From contig JAUIII010000009.1 in the NCBI GenBank assembly GCA_030431855.1, forward strand, positions 1-34,191: a stretch of DNA of 34,191 bases, given 5' to 3'. Source of the DNA: a bacterium. GTDB lineage: Bacteria > Patescibacteriota > Saccharimonadia > Saccharimonadales > Saccharimonadaceae. Made by a program: the position numbers and the translations under genes. The notes below the pieces were generated by a model. The model saw nothing but the letters and a program-made list of their open reading frames with translations, made no database searches and had not been told where the DNA came from. Positions 1 to 26,181 of this stretch are shown piece after piece; within the stretch, counting starts at the first letter, position 1, and each line of letters starts with the position of its first letter.

Positions 1-188
1 CCGCCGGGGTGATTCACGGTGATTTTGAAAAAGGCTTTATAGCCGCGCAAGTAGTCGCCTACCCAGACCTAATAGCCGCTGGCAGCGAAGCAGCCGCCAA
101 AAGTGCCGGCAAGCTCCGCACCGAAGGTAAAGACTACGTGATGCAGCCAGATGACGTGGTAGAATTTCGATTTAACGTAACAAAATAG
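1..188 (+). CDS. ychF: YchF/OBG-family GTPase/ATPase, C-terminal fragment (5' partial)
   Basis: Reading frame 3 is open from the left edge to the TAG at 186-188 and gives 61 residues. The protein holds the signature YchF C-terminal TGS-domain text: an [12 protein letters not shown] stretch, then [17 protein letters not shown], then [19 protein letters not shown]. YchF is a near-universal, ribosome-associated P-loop ATPase of the OBG family; the nucleotide-binding part lies outside the window. The fragment ends at the expected place for the family, so the gene looks intact at its 3' end. Its stop codon lies inside the left arm of a terminator hairpin. Identity is very likely from these conserved words; nothing can be said about the missing N-terminal part. 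Confidence 0.93.
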
Positions 189-216
189 CGCCCCAGAATG
201 TAGAGCGCTATTTTCT
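184..216. terminator. Bidirectional Rho-independent terminator between ychF and the GDPD gene
   Basis: AATAGCGC (184-191) pairs perfectly with GCGCTATT (205-212) around a 13-base loop. The plus-strand side runs into TTTTCTTT. The minus-strand side runs into TTTTGTT, so it can end both ychF and the convergent gene at 229-1119. The ychF stop codon is part of the stem. Confidence 0.85.
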
Positions 217-1237: not shown

Positions 1238-1972
1238 TCACACCTTGGTCGCGAAGAAGATGGTGCGCTTGGTGTAGACCCCCGGGGCAAGGCGTAGCCC
1301 CGAACACACCACGATCGCAGCGTTGTCGTCGGGGCGAGCCCCGTTGAGACGCGCGATCGCCTTCTCCTTCTTGGCGGGTGCGCCGTGCTCCTTCACGTTC
1401 ATGACGGAGTTGACGCGGAAGCAGATCACCTCGCGCGGTTTGGCACCTCGGAGCACAATCAGGCTCTCGCGGTGCAGCGTACGCTTGGCAACGTTGCCCA
1501 GGGCGGTGTCGAGGTTGTTCCAGGTGTGCGCGGTCAGACGCACGATCGAGGTCTCGCCCACCTTGCCCCGAGACGTGTCCCAGCCAAAGATACTCGGGTT
1601 GCCACCTTCGGGAACGTAGAGCGTGTAGCCCATCACGTTGCCCTGTGCGTCGTAGATGGGCTGCAACGGCCCACCCTTCACGTCGTAGCGACCCACCCCG
1701 AACAGCTCGACGCTCTTCAGCGTGAACGGCTCGGTGCTCTGAGTCTGGCAGACTTCGGGCAGCGGTAGCTGCTTCTCGGTCAAGATCGTGCCGGGCACTA
1801 CCTTCGGTGGCACGATGACAGCACTCGATGAGGACTGCGACGGAGCATCCGCTCCATCGTGAGTCGGCGTCACCGGGTGCTGCCACGACCACCACGTCAG
1901 GACAGTGCCTGCAAGTAGCAAAGCCAAGGCCCCTGCGAGGAGCCCGACTTTGCGATTCGATATCGTTCGCAT
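1238..1972 (-). CDS. Divergent sortase-like transpeptidase (class E/F-like), GC-rich island
   Basis: The 244-residue protein has an N-terminal membrane anchor (about 10-30), a Ser/Pro-rich linker (about 35-65) and a C-terminal sortase-like domain. The likely catalytic triad is His149 in LTAHTW, Cys223 in VVCSG and Arg236 in YTKRTIFFA, in the order and spacing expected of sortases. Sortases cut LPXTG-type signals and join surface proteins to an envelope nucleophile. The usual TLxTC around the cysteine is replaced by IVVCSG, so it is diverged; similarity to actinobacterial class E/F enzymes is my impression, not a search result. A Shine-Dalgarno (GGAG, 8 bases away) supports the ATG at 1972. 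It lies just downstream of the LPDTG protein at 2204-4024, a natural substrate, but has its own promoter and terminator. Codon use is clearly more GC-rich than in flanking genes. Confidence 0.72.
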   Translation of the reverse strand: MRTISNRKVGLLAGALALLLAGTVLTWWSWQHPVTPTHDGADAPSQSSSSAVIVPPKVVPGTILTEKQLPLPEVCQTQSTEPFTLKSVELFGVGRYDVKGGPLQPIYDAQGNVMGYTLYVPEGGNPSIFGWDTSRGKVGETSIVRLTAHTWNNLDTALGNVAKRTLHRESLIVLRGAKPREVICFRVNSVMNVKEHGAPAKKEKAIARLNGARPDDNAAIVVCSGLRLAPGVYTKRTIFFATKV

Positions 1973-2047
1973 TGCGGGTGTCTCCTCATATTGGGGGGAA
2001 GTGTCGGATTGTGTCGAACTAACGGATCAGGTATCCGTCTGCATAGT

Positions 2048-2076
2048 ATTATAACATAAAATATAAATAATATCAA
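2048..2076 (-). promoter_or_regulatory. Strong sigma-70-type promoter of the island sortase gene
   Basis: On the minus strand TTGATA (2071-2076) is followed after exactly 17 bases by TATAAT (2048-2053). Transcription should start near 2041 and give a leader of about 69 bases. The promoter lies in a short AT-rich stretch between two GC-rich units. Confidence 0.85.
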
Positions 2077-2083
2077 TATAAAA

Positions 2084-2129
2084 GAGTCCCGGCCCTGCCC
2101 CACCATGCGGTGGGGCAGGAGCCGGGCTC
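2084..2129 (-). terminator. Long GC-rich terminator of the LPDTG surface-protein gene
   Basis: The arms 2084-2104 and 2109-2129 form a stem of about 21 bp with a single mismatch and a 4-base GCAT loop on the minus strand, followed by UUUUAU. It is one of the strongest hairpins in the window and ends the gene at 2204-4024 just before the next promoter. Confidence 0.9.
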
Positions 2130-2203
2130 CTTCACATCAGCTCACGCCCTTGGTAGAAGGGTGCAGCCTGTACTACAGGTACTGCTGGTACTGCTTCTCG
2201 GGG

Positions 2204-4024
2204 TCAGCCGCGGTGACGAGCTGCCCCGGGGGCAGCGACGAGCACCACGACCGCGACGGCACCTGCCGCCATCAGCACGATGCCGAGCAGCATGAACGGG
2301 TTCATGCCACCGGCCGGCGTCGACGGCAGGGCCGCCTCGGCCTTCGGGGCCGGTGCGGCCTTCACCACCACGCCCGTGTCCGGGAGCTCGGTGATGTCGG
2401 TCGGCGGCGCCGAGGGCGTCGGCGTGCTCGACGGCGGCTCAGGGGTCGGAGTCGGCGTCGGGGTGGGCGTCGGCGTGGGCGTGGGGGTCGGAGTGGGAGT
2501 CGGCGTGGGCGTCGTGCCGCACTCCTGCTCCACCTCGACCGGGTCCAGCCACGTGTCGATGTTGCCACCCTTCACGCGGATGTACGCCGGCGAGAAGTCC
2601 ACGTTCGTGAACGTGATCGTCTCACCCGGCGCCAGCGTGATGCTGTTCACCGGCTCCTCGTCCATCGCGGGGTAGAGGTAGGCCTCGAGGCTCACCTCCA
2701 CCAGCGACGTCACGCTGACCTCCTGGCAGCCGCCCTGCGCCGTTGCCGGCACCGGGCACTCCTCGACCGTGAAGGTGTCGGAGTCGACGGTCTCGCCGTC
2801 CACCGCCAGGTCGAGCGTGTGCTGACCCGCCGAGATGGGCATGGCGCCCACCTCGATGTCCTCGCCGTCCAGCGTGTACTGGTAGTCGGCGTCCTCCGGC
2901 TTCACGCCGGTGGGCGCCTCCACGGTGAGGGTGGTGCAGGTGTAGCTGAACGTCGACGTGCCCTCGTGCGGGACCTTGCACGCCTCCACGGTGAACTTCT
3001 CGAAGTCGACCTTCGTCTTGTTCACGTAGAGCTTCAGCGTGTGCTGCCCCACCGACAGCGGGTGCGTGCCGGGCTCGACGGTGGCGCCGTCGAGCTTGAT
3101 GACGACGGTGGCGTCCTCGGGCGCGATGCCCTCGGGCGCGTAGATCGTCACCGACTCGCAGCCGGGCTCGAACTTCAGGTCACCGGCCGGCGGAACCGGG
3201 CACTCCTCGGTGCCGGGGATCTTCGTCCACGGCACGTTGGGGTAGTCGCCACGGTCGGGCTCGGAAGCCGACCGCACCGGACCCTGGACGATCGGGTCGT
3301 CCTGGACCACGCGCTTGTCGATCTCGACCCACGGGTCGCCAGGGGTGTCCGTCGTCCAGTTGCCGTCGTTGTAGTAGACGGTCTGCTCGGGCGTCGGCTC
3401 CACCTTCCAGCGCTCGTCGATCTTGATCCACGGGTCGGTCAGGACGTCGGTCGTCCACTCGGAGTACTCCCAGTGGAAGCCGTCGCTGACCTCGCGCGAG
3501 TCGACCTGGTCGGTCTTGAAGTAGGTGTAGTACGTCGACTTCTTGAAGTACGTCTTGCCGTCGACGTCGTACGAGTTGCTGGTCGAGCTGTGAGGCCCGG
3601 CCTGCTCCGTCTCGTCGTCGTAGCCCCAGGCGCCCCAGTGGGTCAGCGGACCGCCGTTCCACGTGGGAGCCTCGAACCACTCGAAGTCGAACGTGCCGAC
3701 CTTCTCGGTCCACCCACCCTTCTTCTTGTAGACGTCGCCGCGCACCTTCTTCTTGTAGAGGTAGCGGTACTCGGTGTGCGAGTCCTCCACCTTCTGCTTG
3801 TACTTGTACTCCTTGACGCCCTCGGTGCCGGGGATCGTCTTGGAGTACTTGTACTCGGTGTGCTCCTGCGGGATGGACCGGGTCCACTCGTAGGTGCACT
3901 GCTCGGGCGGCGGCGGGTGGCCGCCTCCGGTCGCGTTGGCGGCGCTGAACGCCGTCATGATGAGTCCGACCAGCATGACGCCGATGGCGCCGAAGATGCT
4001 GAGCCGGTTGGGCTTGCGGGACAT
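2204..4024 (-). CDS. Large LPXTG-type cell-surface protein with Ig-like repeats and a Thr-Pro stalk
   Basis: The 606-residue protein starts with a signal peptide (about 1-31). Next comes an aromatic and Lys-rich region (about 42-245) with repeated TEYKY/TEYRY and WTTD...DPW words. Two similar domains of about 65 residues follow (roughly 285-352 and 358-425), each with a CESVTIYAPEG- or CTTLTVEAPTG-type opening and an SVGQHTL or SAGQHTL core; a more diverged third domain follows. A (Thr-Pro)n stalk (about 504-530) leads to LPDTG (about 549-553), then LPSTPAGG, a membrane helix and the tail AARHRG. This is the layout of sortase-anchored adhesins. LPDTG is about 20 residues from the helix, farther than usual. 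The gene has extremely high GC at third positions, typical of a high-GC donor, and the sortase lies directly downstream. Ligand unknown. Start supported by a GAGGGG ribosome site. Confidence 0.85.
   Translation of the reverse strand: MSRKPNRLSIFGAIGVMLVGLIMTAFSAANATGGGHPPPPEQCTYEWTRSIPQEHTEYKYSKTIPGTEGVKEYKYKQKVEDSHTEYRYLYKKKVRGDVYKKKGGWTEKVGTFDFEWFEAPTWNGGPLTHWGAWGYDDETEQAGPHSSTSNSYDVDGKTYFKKSTYYTYFKTDQVDSREVSDGFHWEYSEWTTDVLTDPWIKIDERWKVEPTPEQTVYYNDGNWTTDTPGDPWVEIDKRVVQDDPIVQGPVRSASEPDRGDYPNVPWTKIPGTEECPVPPAGDLKFEPGCESVTIYAPEGIAPEDATVVIKLDGATVEPGTHPLSVGQHTLKLYVNKTKVDFEKFTVEACKVPHEGTSTFSYTCTTLTVEAPTGVKPEDADYQYTLDGEDIEVGAMPISAGQHTLDLAVDGETVDSDTFTVEECPVPATAQGGCQEVSVTSLVEVSLEAYLYPAMDEEPVNSITLAPGETITFTNVDFSPAYIRVKGGNIDTWLDPVEVEQECGTTPTPTPTPTPTPTPTPTPTPTPTPEPPSSTPTPSAPPTDITELPDTGVVVKAAPAPKAEAALPSTPAGGMNPFMLLGIVLMAAGAVAVVVLVAAPGAARHRG
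2443..2513 (-). repeat. Hexanucleotide repeat coding for a (Thr-Pro)n stalk
   Basis: About twelve degenerate six-base units (plus-strand pattern GTCGGN/GTGGGN) code for alternating Thr and Pro. Changes of whole units would lengthen or shorten the stalk without breaking the frame. Confidence 0.85.
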
Positions 4025-4263
4025 GGTGTCCCCTCTCTACTCGGTGGAACTCGATGAAAACAGCGCTGCGTGACGTATGCGGGGGTTGATGCCCCGACAC
4101 CTGATGCTTGATCAAAGCTGTACTGTGATGTGAAAGAGCATACGGCTACACTACCGTACTCGTGCATACGAATCCGTACGCTCTTTCCTCGCAGTAAAGC
4201 CATGACCAAGCACCAAACATCAGTCGCCACATACATGACGCAGCGACCAGTTTGGACTGGCTG
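4025..4263 (-). promoter_or_regulatory. Long structured 5' leader of the LPDTG protein mRNA
   Basis: The transcript from the promoter at 4270-4298 should begin near 4263 and run about 239 bases before the ATG at 4024. A 13-bp long-range stem joins 4133-4145 with 4174-4186; its one non-Watson-Crick pair is G-U on the minus strand but A-C on the plus strand. A smaller CGTA/TACG hairpin lies inside the loop. A second element (about 4220-4265) can pair CAGT with ACTG, and a GGGG/CCCC hairpin lies at about 4081-4097. I do not recognise a known riboswitch class. No convincing coding region fits here. Confidence 0.5.
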
Positions 4264-4269
4264 CATGTC

Positions 4270-4298
4270 ATTATACCACAAAAAACTTAAAAAGTAAA
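4270..4298 (-). promoter_or_regulatory. Extended -10 promoter of the LPDTG surface-protein gene
   Basis: On the minus strand TGG-TATAAT (TATAAT at 4270-4275) lies 17 bases from TTTACT (4293-4298). The region is AT-rich, in contrast with the gene it drives. Confidence 0.8.
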
Positions 4299-4335
4299 TA
4301 GTTGTAGACCACAAAAGCACAAGCGAAAACGCGGC

Positions 4336-4384
4336 AGTGCGGGGGCTTCCCAGGGCAGTTGCCTGCCGAGAAGCCCCGCGCACT
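4336..4384 (-). terminator. GC-rich terminator of the small secreted-protein gene
   Basis: On the minus strand AGTGCG-GGGGCTT pairs with AAGCCCC-CGCACT with one bulge, closing an inner hairpin. It is followed by GCCGCGTTTTCGC. It ends the gene at 4425-4859. The stretch 4299-4335 between it and the next promoter shows nothing else. Confidence 0.75.
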
Positions 4385-4424
4385 CCGCGTCGTGGATCCG
4401 TCAGAGTGGATCAGGCTCGCGCTG

Positions 4425-4859
4425 TCAGGGCACCGGCGAGTTGCACAGCCGCTCTACGACCGCTCGCGGGTTGGAACCCGGCGAGAACTCGGCGTAGACG
4501 AAGCTGTTGACGAGGTTGCGCCCGACCTTGGCGTCGCGCTTCACCTCGAAGTAGAACTCGACGAAGCGCTTGTTCACCCGCGAACCACTGCCATAGCGGT
4601 CGCGACCGTCGACCCGAAGGCTGAACTCGCCCCAGGTCTTGATGCGCTCCCCCTTCTGAACCCTCAGGTTCACCCGGAACATCTTGTCCGGACGCACCTT
4701 GGGGCAGCGGGCGTTGGTGCCCTTCTTGATCTTGGTCAGGGTGACCAACTGGGGGTTGGTCTGGTCGCCACCCATGGCCGTAGCCGATGGAGCGAACGAA
4801 GTGCTCATCATCCCGGCGAGAATCGCCGAGACCACGAGAACAACGAGCCTGCGGATCAT
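4425..4859 (-). CDS. Small secreted protein of unknown function, GC-rich island
   Basis: The 144-residue protein has a classic signal peptide: MIRR, a hydrophobic core (about 5-20) and a cleavage site after ATA near residue 28. The mature part, about 115 residues, is basic and probably beta-rich, with two cysteines (Cys52 and a second near the C-terminus, in LCNSPVP) that could form a disulfide. I recognise no family. It has its own strong promoter, a leader with a hairpin around the ribosome site, and a GC-rich terminator, like the two other units in the island, so it may belong with the sortase and LPDTG protein as a third surface or secreted component (inference). It has no sorting signal of its own. 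Third positions are GC-rich, unlike tlyA next to it. Confidence 0.75.
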   Translation of the reverse strand: MIRRLVVLVVSAILAGMMSTSFAPSATAMGGDQTNPQLVTLTKIKKGTNARCPKVRPDKMFRVNLRVQKGERIKTWGEFSLRVDGRDRYGSGSRVNKRFVEFYFEVKRDAKVGRNLVNSFVYAEFSPGSNPRAVVERLCNSPVP

Positions 4860-5790: not shown

Positions 5791-7493
5791 GAGTACATAA
5801 TCTTTTCTACCTGACGCGTAATGTCGGCAATGTGCCCCCACGAGCTGCCTTTGGTCATTATCACGAGGCTATAGGTACCTTTTGGATGCACTACTATGGC
5901 CGCGTCGTTCAAATAATCCCATAAAAAGCCGACTTTATCGTATACCTTACCGGCGCTACCCGCCGGGATGCCCTGGCGATACAGCTGTCGTCCCATATAG
6001 CCTGTTATTTTACTCTGCATAGAACCGCTAACCATACTCCCGTTCCAGATACCAAGGAGTACTTTCTGTAAATCGCTTGCCGAGGTGTGCGTTGCGTCGG
6101 GGTTAACGAAAGTGGTGGCGGCAGAAATACCCTTTCCGTACAAGAAGCTGTTGAGCTTGCTAGCGCCAGCTTTCTTTATCCAGGCCTCGGCGCAGGCATT
6201 GTCGCTAATCACAATCATGCGCTCTAAACAGCCATCCACTGTAGTATCGAGCATTTTATCGCTGAGTTTCATCTTGCCCGTTTTAATTTGATTGGCTACC
6301 CATACGGCTACGTACAGTTTGTAGGTGCTGGCGCTGACAACGCTGTCGTAGGCGCCGCCGTTGGCGTACCACCCCGAGCCCGACAACTGTAATACACTGA
6401 TGTTGATACCCTCTTCGCTCGCTAAATAGGCCACATAGGCCTGTAGTCCCTTTTGAGTAGAGGTATAGCTGCGCGTGTATGATTTGGGCGATGGAATCGG
6501 CTGCATAAGTACATCCATTTGCACCGATTCGGTACTGTTGATTGCATTTGTAATTTTGGTCGTCAGATCAGCAGCAGCAATAGCAGACCCTTTGGTACCA
6601 TTTTTTCTGGCCGTTTCTACGCCATCGACTAACGTAATGTAGGTGGTTTTACCGGTGGTAGCGACGGTTTTATTGATACCCGCTATGTAGCTCCCGATCG
6701 CCTTTTTATCTGGCGAAACCGTTACCGATCCGTCTTTTGAACTAATTTTAAGCCACATGGCGACGTCGTTTTTCTTTGGCGTAATACTTTTGCCACTGGC
6801 AAATTGCAACGTATATGAACGGTTGATGATTGCTTCGGCCTTTTTACGCACCGCTTCTATCGACGCGTCGGCAACCGCTGGGTCTGTAGAGCTTGATTCA
6901 ACCGATACCTTTTTTGTATCAGGCGTAAATGTAGTGTTTTGGACTGCTTTTTCCACTGCGGCGGCCGTCACGGCCTCACCATTTTTCGCGGTAGTTACCA
7001 CTAGCTTGCCTTTTTTAATCGCCAAGGCCGCATCGACAGGTTTTGACGACAATTTCTTGACTGCTTGCGCTGCTTCCTGGGAAAGCGCGCTGTCAGAAAA
7101 CGTTACGTTGAAATGGTCGACGCTCGGCTTGACCCATACAATCGATAATGGCAAGATGCGCTGCCAAACAGGATAAAATGCCAGCTGACTAGCAACATCT
7201 GCGGCATCGACGCTCGCCCCAAGGCTGGAAAGCGATGTAGTGTAGCTCGTCGATGGTGTGGTAAGAGTGATTTCTGATGCACGAAACGCCTCTGTTACCT
7301 CTTTGGTAAGCGCGTCACGACTCATGCCGCCCACGTTTTTTTCGTACAGCACTGCACCTGGCAATGCTTTGTCGCTGGGATATAAAAACTGCCACACTAC
7401 TTGTGCCAATATGAGTGCGGCTACACCTAAAAGAAGTGGTGTTTTATGGTTTTTGAGCCACTGAAAACGTCCCGAGGATTCACTCGTTTCCAT
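5787..7493 (-). CDS. Membrane-anchored class A beta-lactamase-like serine hydrolase with VanW/PG-binding-like N-terminal region
   Basis: The 568-residue protein has a short cytoplasmic tail, one membrane helix (about 19-37) and a long extracytoplasmic part. Residues about 45-330 hold repeats that resemble the peptidoglycan-binding domain found with VanW and L,D-transpeptidases (tentative). The C-terminal domain (about 350-568) has the serine beta-lactamase/PBP motifs: SxxK at Ser389-Lys392 (STYK), SDN at 430-432, and K520-V-G522 in the KTG position. No glutamate fits the class A Glu166 position; the omega-loop region reads NPDATHT. It may therefore form acyl-enzymes without efficient hydrolysis, as a D,D-peptidase or transpeptidase-like enzyme of the cell wall. 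It is the first gene of a pair with tlyA. A TGG-TACAAT box ends 6 bases before the ATG. Confidence 0.8.
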   Translation of the reverse strand: METSESSGRFQWLKNHKTPLLLGVAALILAQVVWQFLYPSDKALPGAVLYEKNVGGMSRDALTKEVTEAFRASEITLTTPSTSYTTSLSSLGASVDAADVASQLAFYPVWQRILPLSIVWVKPSVDHFNVTFSDSALSQEAAQAVKKLSSKPVDAALAIKKGKLVVTTAKNGEAVTAAAVEKAVQNTTFTPDTKKVSVESSSTDPAVADASIEAVRKKAEAIINRSYTLQFASGKSITPKKNDVAMWLKISSKDGSVTVSPDKKAIGSYIAGINKTVATTGKTTYITLVDGVETARKNGTKGSAIAAADLTTKITNAINSTESVQMDVLMQPIPSPKSYTRSYTSTQKGLQAYVAYLASEEGINISVLQLSGSGWYANGGAYDSVVSASTYKLYVAVWVANQIKTGKMKLSDKMLDTTVDGCLERMIVISDNACAEAWIKKAGASKLNSFLYGKGISAATTFVNPDATHTSASDLQKVLLGIWNGSMVSGSMQSKITGYMGRQLYRQGIPAGSAGKVYDKVGFLWDYLNDAAIVVHPKGTYSLVIMTKGSSWGHIADITRQVEKIMYS

Positions 7494-8006: not shown

Positions 8007-8567
8007 CTATTTCTTGCGTTCGCGGTATTCGCCCGTGGTGGTATCGACACTAATAATATCGCCGGTCTTAATAAATGCCGGCACACGTACAGAAATGCCC
8101 GTTTCCAGTGTCGCATCTTTGGTCACAGCGCCTGAGGTATCGCCTTTTACCACTTCTTCGGTGTAGGTAACCTCTAGGAATAGGTTCTTTGGCAGCTCGA
8201 CATTGATAACTCGGTCGCCGAAGAATTGCAGTTGTAGGTTATCGCCTTCCTTTAGGTAGTTGGCAGCGCTGTCAACAACATCAGTTGGCAGCTCAAACTG
8301 CTCAAAGCTTTCAGGATCCATGAAAAAGAAATTGGTGCCGTCGCTATAGAGGTACTGCACGGTCTTTTGCGACACTTCAGCGCGCTCGATTTTATCAGCG
8401 CCTTTGAATGTCTTTGGAATCACACTGCCATCTAGCAGGTTCTTTAGGCGCACATTCACAATACTGCCGCCGCGACCCATCACCTTTTGACTGTAGTCAA
8501 TCACGCGATATGGTGTACCGTCAATTTGGCAAACAGTGCCTTTTTTGAGATCGGTTGGTTGATACAT
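8007..8567 (-). CDS. efp: Translation elongation factor P
   Basis: The 186-residue protein has the length and the three-beta-domain pattern of EF-P. The N-terminal KOW-like domain (about 1-65) carries the tip loop KVMGRGGSIVNVRLKNL, with Arg32 where the modified Lys or Arg usually sits. The C-terminal domain ends in SVDTTTGEYRER, the classic EF-P signature. EF-P binds next to the ribosomal P site and rescues ribosomes stalled at polyproline; this cell makes Pro-rich proteins (2204-4024, 27232-29124), so it should be needed. The usual PGKG before the tip is MGRG. The gene starts 3 bases after the rpsR stop; AAGGG 7 bases ahead is a weak ribosome site. Confidence 0.97.
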   Translation of the reverse strand: MYQPTDLKKGTVCQIDGTPYRVIDYSQKVMGRGGSIVNVRLKNLLDGSVIPKTFKGADKIERAEVSQKTVQYLYSDGTNFFFMDPESFEQFELPTDVVDSAANYLKEGDNLQLQFFGDRVINVELPKNLFLEVTYTEEVVKGDTSGAVTKDATLETGISVRVPAFIKTGDIISVDTTTGEYRERKK

Positions 8568-24125: not shown

Positions 24126-25187
24126 CTATAGCGCGCTGAACGATACCGCTGGCGAAAAGCCGCTGTGTGTAACTTGCGCGGTATTACTAAGGTTTCCGTA
24201 TGTGTCTTCGAATCGATACGTTAACAAAAGCGGATTTGCGTTAGGATAGCGCATGTCAGCACCGCCATAGTAGGTATCGTAGTCAATTTCTGATGGTGGA
24301 TAGCCGCCGGGAAGGCCAAGTGTTGCTTCATTGGTTATCGTCACCGTTAACACATCTGTACCAGGATTGTAAACAGCTGTATAGCCTGGCCCGGTGACCG
24401 ATTGTTGCACTCCCGATGTACTCACATTCAAATCAACTGTAGATGGATCTGGGCTAGTGGCAGAATCGTTCGCCAGTAGCTGAACTGTCCAAACCGTTTG
24501 GGCTGTTCCGTCGGTTCTATCGATGATAAATTCTGGGTCACCAGATGAGTAGCCAAAGCCATGGCAATACGTGAAGTCGCCATGTAAATGATAGTTCGCA
24601 TACCCAATGCCATCCACGCAAAAATCGGCCAATGCATCATTGTTTGCCACGGGTGTGGTGGTAACCACCGGCTTGTAGGTACTTGTGACCGTTTCGCCAG
24701 CAGTATCGTCTATACTGTACTGAACACCCCTAGCGGTTCCGACAAAGCTTGGGGTTGGTGTGTAGGTGATACGCCCATTTCCGCCAGCTACGTACACGCC
24801 TTCAGTTGGCGCAGTAACCGTTTTATTGTCGTTGCTCACTGTTGAACCCGTACGCGGATTGCTTACCAAGGCCAAACGTAGTGACGACAGAACGAAACTA
24901 GCCCCTTCGCTCGGCGTATCATTGCTGAGCACATTGTACACTTGTACTTCACCCTGCAAACCATTTGAAGTATCTGGTATGGCTGCAGCTACGCAATCAG
25001 TGGCTAAGCCGCTCGCAGCTTGTACTGGCGTACCGATAGACAGCGCAACAAACGCAATTGCCGCCGCAAATATACCTTTACGAAGCCCCGGCAGTAGAAA
25101 TGTACCGGCAGGCAACACAATCAATAGAAATGCAACTGCAACATATAGCCATATACTGGCGCCTGTTGGCGCTAAGCAATTCTCCAT
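24126..25187 (-). CDS. CshA-fibril-like surface protein with an N-terminal LAPTG sorting-type signal
   Basis: The 353-residue protein opens MENC-LAPTG (LAPTG 5-9), followed at once by a hydrophobic helix (about 12-33) and Arg36-Lys37. A second hydrophobic stretch (about 38-53) has a signal-peptidase-like site after VQA (57). The first 37 residues thus look like a complete cell-wall sorting signal placed at the wrong end, and the next 20 like a signal peptide. The exported part has a CshA-type fibril repeat (about 70-175: VYNVLSNDTPSEG, ITYTPTPSFVGTARGVQYSIDDTAGE) and a diverged second unit (about 180-345: LLANDSATSPDP, YRFEDTYGN). CshA repeats make adhesive fibrils in streptococci. A sortase is encoded divergently next door. 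Promoter TTGACT-17-TACAAT and a GAGG ribosome site fit the ATG at 25187. Confidence 0.75.
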   Translation of the reverse strand: MENCLAPTGASIWLYVAVAFLLIVLPAGTFLLPGLRKGIFAAAIAFVALSIGTPVQAASGLATDCVAAAIPDTSNGLQGEVQVYNVLSNDTPSEGASFVLSSLRLALVSNPRTGSTVSNDNKTVTAPTEGVYVAGGNGRITYTPTPSFVGTARGVQYSIDDTAGETVTSTYKPVVTTTPVANNDALADFCVDGIGYANYHLHGDFTYCHGFGYSSGDPEFIIDRTDGTAQTVWTVQLLANDSATSPDPSTVDLNVSTSGVQQSVTGPGYTAVYNPGTDVLTVTITNEATLGLPGGYPPSEIDYDTYYGGADMRYPNANPLLLTYRFEDTYGNLSNTAQVTHSGFSPAVSFSAL

Positions 25188-25235
25188 TTTTTCCTCGTTT
25201 TTGTCTTTCTACCAGATGTTATGGTGTTCATGCTT

Positions 25236-25264
25236 ATTGTAGTCTTACCTCTTTGGCAAGTCAA
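25236..25264 (-). promoter_or_regulatory. Promoter of the fibril-protein gene
   Basis: On the minus strand TTGACT (25259-25264), exactly 17 bases, TACAAT (25236-25241). The predicted leader of about 42 bases contains the GAGG ribosome site. Confidence 0.85.
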
Positions 25265-25268
25265 GTAC

Positions 25269-25277
25269 TGCTACAAT
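25269..25277 (+). promoter_or_regulatory. Extended -10, leaderless-type promoter of the second sortase
   Basis: TGC-TACAAT (TACAAT 25272-25277) ends exactly 6 bases before the ATG at 25284; the -35 is poor. It is back to back with the fibril-gene promoter, so the two genes can respond together. Confidence 0.65.
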
Positions 25278-25283
25278 TTATAT

Positions 25284-25913
25284 ATGCTTACGCTTCCTAC
25301 GAATCGCCGGCGCTCGCTGATGCTGTTTTTCATGCTTTGCGTTTCCATGCTCATCGGCGTGTACTTGCTATTCGTCATCTTGTCTCCAACATTACGAAGT
25401 AGCATGGTTCAGCCCAAGAATAACGCAACAACACAGCAACTCGACTCAACAGCAAATGCGCCAAAGCAAGCACGACTCTATATCCCCAAAATCGACGTCA
25501 ACGTTCCCTTTGCCGCTAATGAAGCGGCGCTGTACAAAGGTGCCTGGTGGCGTAAACCCGCCAATGGAAACCCGGCAGATGGCGGGAATTTTGTATTGGC
25601 TGCCCATCGCTTTGTCATGAGTTTTACCCCTGGCGAAACAGTCAAACGCTCGCCATTTTATGCCATAGATAAACTCCAGAAAAATGATGCAATCTATGTG
25701 GATTACAAAGGAAAACGCTATAGCTATATGGTAACGAAAAAAATGCGCGTACAGCCCAACGCCGTTTATATCGAACAACGTACCGAGCAGCCGCAGTTGA
25801 CGCTTTACTCGTGCACACTGGCCGGTCAGAATGACGGCCGAGAAGTGATAGTGGCACGTCAAACAAAACTCCCGCCTATTGAAGCGGGAGAGACAATTCA
25901 AGTGAATAAGTAA
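25284..25913 (+). CDS. Sortase
   Basis: From the ATG at 25284 the protein has 209 residues: a basic N-terminus (LPTNRRRS), one membrane helix (about 12-35), a linker and the sortase domain. It starts with ARLYIPKIDVNVPF and contains catalytic His in FVLAAHRF, the cysteine in LTLYSCTLAG (a TLxTC-like motif) and the arginine in REVIVARQ. All three catalytic residues are present. It would transfer proteins with an LPXTG-like signal to the cell surface. The neighbouring divergent gene (24126-25187) carries an LAPTG signal. A longer frame to 25221 exists, but it contains the predicted -10, so 25284 is the better start. The last codons contain the rpsO terminator on the other strand. Confidence 0.9.
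   Translation: MLTLPTNRRRSLMLFFMLCVSMLIGVYLLFVILSPTLRSSMVQPKNNATTQQLDSTANAPKQARLYIPKIDVNVPFAANEAALYKGAWWRKPANGNPADGGNFVLAAHRFVMSFTPGETVKRSPFYAIDKLQKNDAIYVDYKGKRYSYMVTKKMRVQPNAVYIEQRTEQPQLTLYSCTLAGQNDGREVIVARQTKLPPIEAGETIQVNK
25869..25890 (-). terminator. rpsO terminator embedded in the sortase coding end
   Basis: On the minus strand CTCCCGC and GCGGGAG (25884-25890 and 25869-25875) form a perfect 7-bp stem with an 8-base loop, followed by TTTTGTTTG. It lies 24 bases past the rpsO stop codon and wholly inside the convergent sortase gene. Confidence 0.88.
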
Positions 25914-25914
25914 A

Positions 25915-26181
25915 TTACTTGCGTAGTCCGAGTTTTGCAACAAGTGCTTTGTACGCATCAAAATCTTTGCGTTCCAGGTATTTTAGCAAGCGTTTGCGCC
26001 TACCTACCATCTGGATCAACCCGCGACGAGCCATGTGGTCGTGCTTGTTGGCTTTTAGGTGTTCTGTCACCTCTTTGATACGAGCCGTGAGAATCGATAC
26101 TTGCGCCTGTGGGCTGCCAACATCGTTTTTCGCGACCTGAGTCAAAGCAATTGCCTTGGCTTTGTTGTCCTTTGTTATCAT
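25915..26181 (-). CDS. rpsO: Ribosomal protein uS15
   Basis: The 88-residue protein matches S15 throughout: DVGSPQAQVSILTARIKEVTEHLKANKHDHMARRGLIQMVGRRKRLLKYL. It binds the 16S rRNA central domain early in 30S assembly. It is monocistronic. TGG-TAAAAT ends 7 bases before the ATG, so it is one of the few ribosomal protein genes here that look leaderless, with no Shine-Dalgarno. Confidence 0.98.
   Translation of the reverse strand: MITKDNKAKAIALTQVAKNDVGSPQAQVSILTARIKEVTEHLKANKHDHMARRGLIQMVGRRKRLLKYLERKDFDAYKALVAKLGLRK

Follow-up and report, generated by a model that had tools for sequence, protein, structure and literature searches.

A LAPTG sorting-signal layout at the N-terminus of a fibril-like surface protein encoded beside a sortase

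Introduction

Sorting signals normally sit at the C-termini of the proteins that carry them. There, an LPXTG or LAXTG pentapeptide is followed by a hydrophobic helix and by basic residues, in an outside-to-inside orientation. The protein described here has all of these elements in the same orientation and differs in their place, since they stand at the N-terminus, in front of a predicted signal peptide, with 4–8 residues on the acyl side. The nearest described N-terminal element belongs to the YSIRK/GxxS proteins, which keep their C-terminal signals and differ from the present layout in having neither a sorting pentapeptide nor an extra helix; the YSIRK signals target secretion. The YSIRK/GxxS signal peptides stand at the N-termini of sortase substrates and do more there than serve export (PMC12004944).

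Two other systems bear comparison. Class E sortases are linked with LAXTG signals (PMC5148588), and our locus is alike in its LAxTG signal and in that class E ranks with the top NCBIfam models for its sortase. The difference is that this sortase reaches only 43.4 bits with the class E model (NF033747) against a cut-off of 160, with class C level at 42.7, and stays below the NCBIfam cut-offs for every sortase class. In the AgrB system (PMC4979651), a thioester is attacked by a Cys of AgrD to form a 16-membered ring; what AgrD and its autoinducing peptide (AIP) share with our protein is a Cys four residues before the acylated residue and the thioester chemistry of an acyl-enzyme. Among the titles and opening lines of abstracts that our search covered, with subscription journals largely outside it, no paper names a natural N-terminal sorting signal. 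Annotation seeks sorting signals at C-termini, and N-terminal ones would therefore be missed.

The Fibril-Like Protein and Its N-Terminus

The stretch of DNA analysed here (the window, 34,191 nucleotides) is contig C24 of a genome of 0.83 Mb in 28 contigs, labelled G000 below. On its minus strand, positions 24126..25187 encode a fibril-like surface protein of 353 residues with a CshA repeat domain at residues 69–175 (24663..24983, minus strand; Pfam PF19076, E 1.1e-13, 52.2 bits against a cut-off of 27). The repeat is a single one, and its NCBIfam repeat score of 54.7 is below the cut-off of 60. The N-terminus reads, in order, MENC-LAPTG-ASIWLYVAVAFLLIVLPAGTFLLPGL-RKG-IFAAAIAFVALSIGTPVQA|ASG, and the LAPTG-bearing peptide is MENCLAPTGASIW. 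All of its parts lie on the minus strand: MENC, residues 1–4, at 25176–25187; the LAPTG motif, residues 5–9, at 25161..25175; a first hydrophobic helix, residues 10–35, at 25083..25160, where the Kyte-Doolittle maximum after LAPTG is 2.61 over a 17-residue span; and a basic loop RKG, residues 36–38, at 25074..25082, with a charge of +2 over residues 31–42. The second hydrophobic segment, residues 39–57 (25017..25073), has a hydropathy of 1.97 over 15 residues and is signal-peptide-like by sequence, ending in PVQA/A with the putative site VQA/A; its counterpart in a homologue from genome G009 ends in PVSA/A, and PV-x-A-A is invariant in three homologues.

The start of the protein matters for this layout. 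A ribosome-site-like GAGG (25193..25196, minus strand) lies 5 nt before the ATG, and a promoter-like TTGACT-17-TACAAT was picked out by eye further upstream (25236..25264, minus strand). The seven in-frame codons preceding the ATG (KDKNEEK) include no start codon, and GTG or TTG codons occur solely within helix 1. On the grounds of the ribosome site and of conservation, we judge that the first ATG is the true start, and a start downstream of residue 9, which would have removed the motif, is not borne out. No sorting signal was found at the C-terminus; the LAPTG-helix-RK series occupies residues 5–37 of the 353, and the protein is therefore classed as a permuted variant and not as an ordinary sortase substrate. 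The original prediction had read residues 1–37 as a full sorting signal with LAPTG, helix and Arg-Lys, followed by a separate signal peptide. Sequence, hydropathy and an HMM of C-terminal signals (see below) agree with the former, and the PVQA/A ending of the second segment agrees with the latter as a predicted site. Pfam and NCBIfam recognized neither this N-terminal signal nor the three related ones with longer tails that were scanned.

The Neighbouring Sortase and Its Usual Partners

Divergent from the fibril gene is that of a small accessory sortase of 209 residues (25284..25913, plus strand, best start at 25284; Pfam Sortase, E 2.4e-19). The claim that this neighbour has all three catalytic residues was upheld: H108 (25605–25607), C177 (25812–25814) and R186 (25839–25841, all on the plus strand) are invariant in 31 of 31 aligned relatives. 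Its structural model has a pLDDT of 91.5 and matches solved sortases in Foldseek with E values down to 6e-12. Behind the sortase is a context gene outside the system, 25915..26181 on the minus strand, which we take to be rpsO (S15) from its resemblance to the S15 sequence and to locus L117; it marks a locus common to this genome and to G148.

A profile of the three sortases paired with the fibril module detected a small-sortase subfamily. Members were counted in 49 of 295 family genomes at E<1e-28, and a search at the level of the class found them in 41 of 294. Sixty of the neighbourhoods, chosen by score from the larger set found, were examined for partners. Sixteen had a protein frame of at least 100 residues ending in a C-terminal LAxTG signal, and four further ones had an LPxTG protein instead. 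The peptide of a C-terminal relative is DGELADTGMNYW, and the example in G148 reads LADTGMNYWLFGALGLVSLTAGVVVLVSLRRN. This LADTG protein of G148 has the same place and orientation as the window fibril, divergent from the sortase and with rpsO behind. In the sortase tree, one group (support 96/89) unites the enzymes of the window and of G012 with their counterparts in G148, G123, G136, G116, G157 and G068, while that of G009 falls elsewhere on a long branch and is no near sister of the window enzyme; the fibril module is therefore paired with two rather different sortases.

The window's genome, G000, has a second, larger sortase on contig C4. Four proteins with C-terminal LPxTG signals (LPxTGP) are encoded on contigs C4, C6, C7 and C26, and these would apparently suit the larger enzyme. 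Elsewhere in the window, positions 1501–4500 are GC-rich (63–65% against about 48% in the rest) and include a protein with LPDTG followed by a hydrophobic C-terminus (2204–4024). The adjoining frame at 1238–1972 looks sortase-like by eye (TAHTW, VVCSG) and gave no match in Pfam or NCBIfam.

Conservation of the N-Terminus

Matches to the fibril protein were found in four of 61 related genomes, the window's included (G000, G012, G009 and G008), and the N-terminal module in only three of the 14 genomes of the genus. When a profile of fibril residues 1–180 was run over 394 family genomes, ten gave a match of any kind, and the N-terminal module was seen only in G000, G012 and G009. The G012 protein, which reads MENCLAATG, shares 90% identity with the window's and likewise stands divergent from the sortase. 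The G009 protein is 46% identical over residues 1–181 and reads MDSCLADTG; its sortase lies directly downstream on the same strand, and a possible in-frame GTG stands ten codons before its ATG, with a ribosome-site-like stretch between them. Alignment thus finds LAxTG kept in both homologues and CLAxTG invariant in all three. The two relatives in G008 match the window fibril only from residues 66 and 72 onward, and each has one ordinary N-terminal hydrophobic segment, not two, and no LAxTG. A homologue with both helices and without the motif was not met with, as all seven two-helix proteins (G000, G012, G009, G028, two in G123, and G144) carry LAxTG; four of these were found by searching for that motif, and therefore only G012 and G009 count as independent tests.

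The pattern of change between G000 and G009 is uneven. Six of the first nine residues are kept (M, C, L, A, T and G, with E/D, N/S and the x position differing), as compared with 7/26 in residues 10–35 and 8/22 in residues 36–57. The codons for the L, A, T and G of CLAxTG differ between the two genomes, and the conservation is therefore of the protein. The loop after helix 1 has a charge of +2 in G000 and +5 in G009, and the N-terminal tail –1 and –2; by the positive-inside rule, the N-terminus is therefore predicted to lie outside. The fibril gene has stayed next to a sortase in spite of differences in gene order and in the branch to which the sortase belongs.

The comparison with G012 is of another kind. 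In the first 35 codons, 3 of 32 eligible codons are synonymously changed, as compared with 131 of 280 further on (Fisher p 2e-5). The leader is identical all the way from the –10-like TACAAT to the ATG, so that the DNA at 25083–25241 (leader and first 35 codons) is nearly the same in the two genomes. This near-identity could have a cause other than protein function, and recent exchange of the piece or a regulatory overlap could account for it; RNA structure was rejected as the cause (z 0.19).

Comparison with C-Terminal Signals

An HMM was built from 28 C-terminal LAxTG signals, with the LPxTG ones and one near-duplicate left out. It gave the N-terminal modules 27.0 bits in G000, 22.3 in G012 and 34.4 in G009, and the long-tail modules discussed below 30.8 in G028, 28.8 and 21.0 in G123 and 31.9 in G144; scrambling the motif gave 7.5–16.7 bits, and the best of 1400 shuffles 10.9. 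With an eight-row C-terminal profile, G009 gave a single match, which was the fibril N-terminus (E 0.06), and the fibril N-terminus also came first in G012 (E 0.12); in G000 it was absent at E<=10, where two other places matched weakly and in part. The same profile detected strong C-terminal signals in G003, G004, G123, G136 and G148 and no C-terminal LAxTG protein in G000, G012, G009 (77% complete) or G008. The profile of the N-terminal module, in return, matches the C-terminal signals of G154, G148 and G585.

How often such a layout appears was counted in 514 ATG-started proteins of at least 150 residues from 62 loci around sortases of this type. LAxTG occurs 20 times, 14 of them within 27–40 residues of the C-terminus; three of the remaining occurrences are N-terminal with the full layout, and three are elsewhere. 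No full N-terminal layout was obtained when L, A, T and G were put in any of the 23 other orders. At the level of DNA, the CLAxTG pattern has a single match in the 0.83-Mb window genome, namely the fibril. Without regard to position, the pattern turned up in 104 of 151 genomes, about as many as a backward-pattern control, and was uninformative; with an ATG three codons before it, it was found in six of 392 genomes, the window's included. The five outside the window were rejected: in L037, L038 and L041 the frame is short or interrupted by a stop, L042 is a lipoprotein-like leader, and L039 reads CF in place of CL. The N-terminal LAPTG layout of the window fibril is confirmed as a real observation.

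N-Terminal Signals in Other Proteins

The N-terminal module profile found 12 places in 382 class genomes, six of them in G600, G280, G503, G374, G611 and G111. The six that were assigned include, besides the window's and the C-terminal signals just named, another N-terminal signal in G028 (E 0.007). A scan of the loci for LAxTG, helix, basic residues and second helix followed by at least 90 residues returned the three fibrils, the G028 protein, two proteins in G123 and one false match (L009). A further case, in G144, came from a search of 16 genomes, which also gave 16 C-terminal LxxTG frames. These proteins have longer tails before the motif: MNQSITQTITVTTAPANSGGT-LANTG in G028, MQSQTLTQTITLLVGDTTAGGGT-LASTG and MQEQTIEQIITIDYALN-LAETG in the two of G123 (G123a and G123b), and MEQTFEQTITVVVPTINGSGGGT-LASTG in G144. 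The second helices of the seven proteins end in VQA, VQA, VSA, THA, VSA, VQA and VLA, each followed by A, endings that resemble signal-peptidase sites. In G123 and G144, the N-terminal-signal protein was not found beside a sortase. Apart from these, the BNR part of the G009 protein with the N-terminal signal (L065 12357–14270) resembles a G123 protein with a C-terminal LAATG (L116 4882–7266; 25% identity, E 5e-15), and the pair has a similar type of ectodomain with the signal at either end.

Several of these proteins lie near reverse transcriptases (RT). Repeat mismatches biased to A are the mark of a diversity-generating retroelement. The G028 protein adjoins an RT (RVT_1, E 3e-16) and a gene that is bAvd-like at 38.2 bits, slightly under the cut-off of 40. 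The last ~189 nt of the protein's coding sequence are repeated nearby at 87%, with 24 of the 30 mismatches in the last 150 nt on A in the template. The element spans L232 5706–10254, with the template repeat at about 6883–7080 and the variable repeat at 8251–8448, at the end of the protein. These sequence features mark the G028 protein as a diversity-generating retroelement's variable protein. G123b is probably another, having an RT downstream (L265 9019–12150) and a repeat of 45/60 nt in which A is the site of 9 of 15 mismatches, a pattern that weakens when longer stretches are compared. The G144 protein is directly followed by an Avd-like gene (L263 7998–8504), with which the contig ends, and no repeat was seen in the 8.5 kb of that contig; for G123a, an RT lies some 6 kb upstream, and a repeat belonging to the protein was not found. 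In G009, an RT and a bAvd-like gene (L065 15653–17588) lie 1–3 kb from the fibril at a contig end, and the fibril end is not repeated at that locus. The likeness to retroelement variable proteins is thus found in the relative from G028; the window fibril differs, as no RT, Avd or repeat was found for it. We would expect a variable 3′ end to conflict with a sorting signal at the C-terminus, a consideration that does not apply to the window fibril.

Possible Processing and Alternative Explanations

The identity of the signal is seen in its sequence, conservation and layout, in the adjacency to a sortase, and in its recurrence in other genera. The topology, the two cuts, the acceptor, the fate of the N-peptide and the retention of the ectodomain at the surface are what we infer in the following scheme. 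The most economical account would be that a real sorting signal has moved to the N-terminus and is followed by two predicted cuts. The order signal peptide, ectodomain and LAxTG-helix-RK would have been permuted into LAxTG-helix-RK, signal peptide and ectodomain. The chain would insert with its N-terminus outside, and the sortase would therefore meet LAxTG in the usual geometry. A cut between T8 and G9 would leave the enzyme carrying MENCLAPT, which could then pass to an amine, be it that of lipid II or of another acceptor, and signal peptidase would cut after A57 to free the CshA ectodomain. Three products would thereby come from one gene: a short N-peptide processed by the sortase, a hairpin in the membrane, and the ectodomain. 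We hold this reading, a genuine LAxTG signal permuted to the N-terminus with a sortase cut at T8/G9 and an ectodomain freed by signal peptidase, to be somewhat more probable than not. Several observations given above count against it: the module occurs in only three of the 14 genomes of the genus, the eight-row C-terminal profile responded to it weakly or, in G000, not at all, the G009 sortase stands apart from the window's in the tree, and the likeness of the first 35 codons to those of G012 may have arisen for reasons other than protein function.

The other explanations fare less well on the evidence above. It is unlikely, if worth weighing, that the module is a relic of fusion, the sorting signal of a lost upstream protein having been joined to a signal peptide and left uncut as part of a two-helix membrane anchor. 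The permuted order does look as if the tail of one sortase substrate had been fused to the head of a second one, and the transferred octapeptide has no obvious use, a point that counts against the favoured reading and, no use for such a peptide being known, speaks for the relic. Against it, G000 and G009 share CLAxTG despite their different codons, whereas helix 1 retains only 7 of its 26 residues, and the layout recurs with other ectodomains. We give still less credence to the possibility that the outside LAxTG only docks, holding or inhibiting the sortase as a pseudosubstrate or targeting secretion to sortase sites in the manner of YSIRK signals, without productive cutting. The fibril adjoins a sortase in G000, G012 and G009, and the motif is complete with Gly at P1′; but it departs in nothing from a cleavable one, and the G123 and G144 proteins were not found beside a sortase.

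The Cys of CLAxTG invites a comparison with AgrD, in which Cys4 would attack the sortase acyl-enzyme on Thr8 and make a signal peptide with a five-residue thiolactone ring like that of the staphylococcal AIP. The Cys is four residues before the Thr in all three short-tail homologues, C-L-A-x-T would by our count give the ring size of the AIP, and none of the 28 C-terminal signals has a Cys before LAxTG. The short-tail proteins represent at most two independent lineages, however, the long-tail relatives have no Cys at that place, and no AgrB, AgrC or leader peptide came to notice. A thiolactone is thereby ruled out as the general product, and as an explanation for the window protein it is very improbable. 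Mere chance, with an LAPTG beside a sortase that means nothing, is scarcely credible. The bare motif is not rare, as shuffling predicts it 0.8 times in the first 40 residues of 514 proteins; yet its conservation with changed codons, its recurrence, the absence of the layout for other letter orders and the HMM controls all go against chance.

Returning to the permuted signal with two cuts, one part of the original prediction has to be given up. It had proposed an unusual topology beside the sortase, perhaps anchoring or regulating by the N-terminal signal, and the unusual layout stands. The T/G cut leaves only the eight residues MENCLAPT on the acyl side, and the reaction by itself therefore cannot give the fibril an anchor. 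For that, a further step such as a disulphide or a donor strand would be required, or else an uncut second helix. In G000 and G012, a bond between Cys4 and Cys65 is conceivable; as a general anchor this disulphide was rejected, G009 having no such Cys. A donor strand was likewise rejected for the window fibril, where the four residues before LAPTG are too short for a strand.

A broader reading, which we find rather doubtful, is that a lineage of bacteria with small genomes employs the N-terminal signals as a separate display route, with the sortase fixing the N-peptide to the wall, signal peptidase releasing the remainder, and the ectodomain held by that peptide. The long-tail proteins would hold it by a donor β-strand (tail QTxTQTIT before a pilin-like domain) and the CLAxTG proteins by a disulphide or other link, and the C-terminus would stay free, as needed by proteins that a retroelement diversifies at the 3′ end. 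An AlphaFold model of G123a from a four-row alignment has a mean pLDDT of only 42. Its tail is a strand at residues 3–14 (pLDDT 79 for residues 1–10 and 62 for 11–20), and residues 94–208 form a β domain with ten-residue means of 52–82. The top matches of this weak model in VIA-align are donor-strand pilins: EcpA (Z 9.3, 121 residues, rmsd 2.9, model 1..210), BPSL1626 (Z 8.2, model 2..208) and FimG with donor peptide (Z 7.9, model 90..209). Foldseek gave no match at E<=0.001 and mixed pilins with viral jelly rolls, and Z values near 8 are common for such models; the pilin likeness is therefore a lead only. A PDB sequence search with the long-tail proteins returned nothing useful.

Significance

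The back-to-front layout of a sorting signal is conserved and recurring, and the observation is stronger than the original prediction, made from the sequence alone, could know. If these N-terminal signals are processed, they would represent a new topology for sortase chemistry, and perhaps a display route for proteins whose C-terminus must stay variable.
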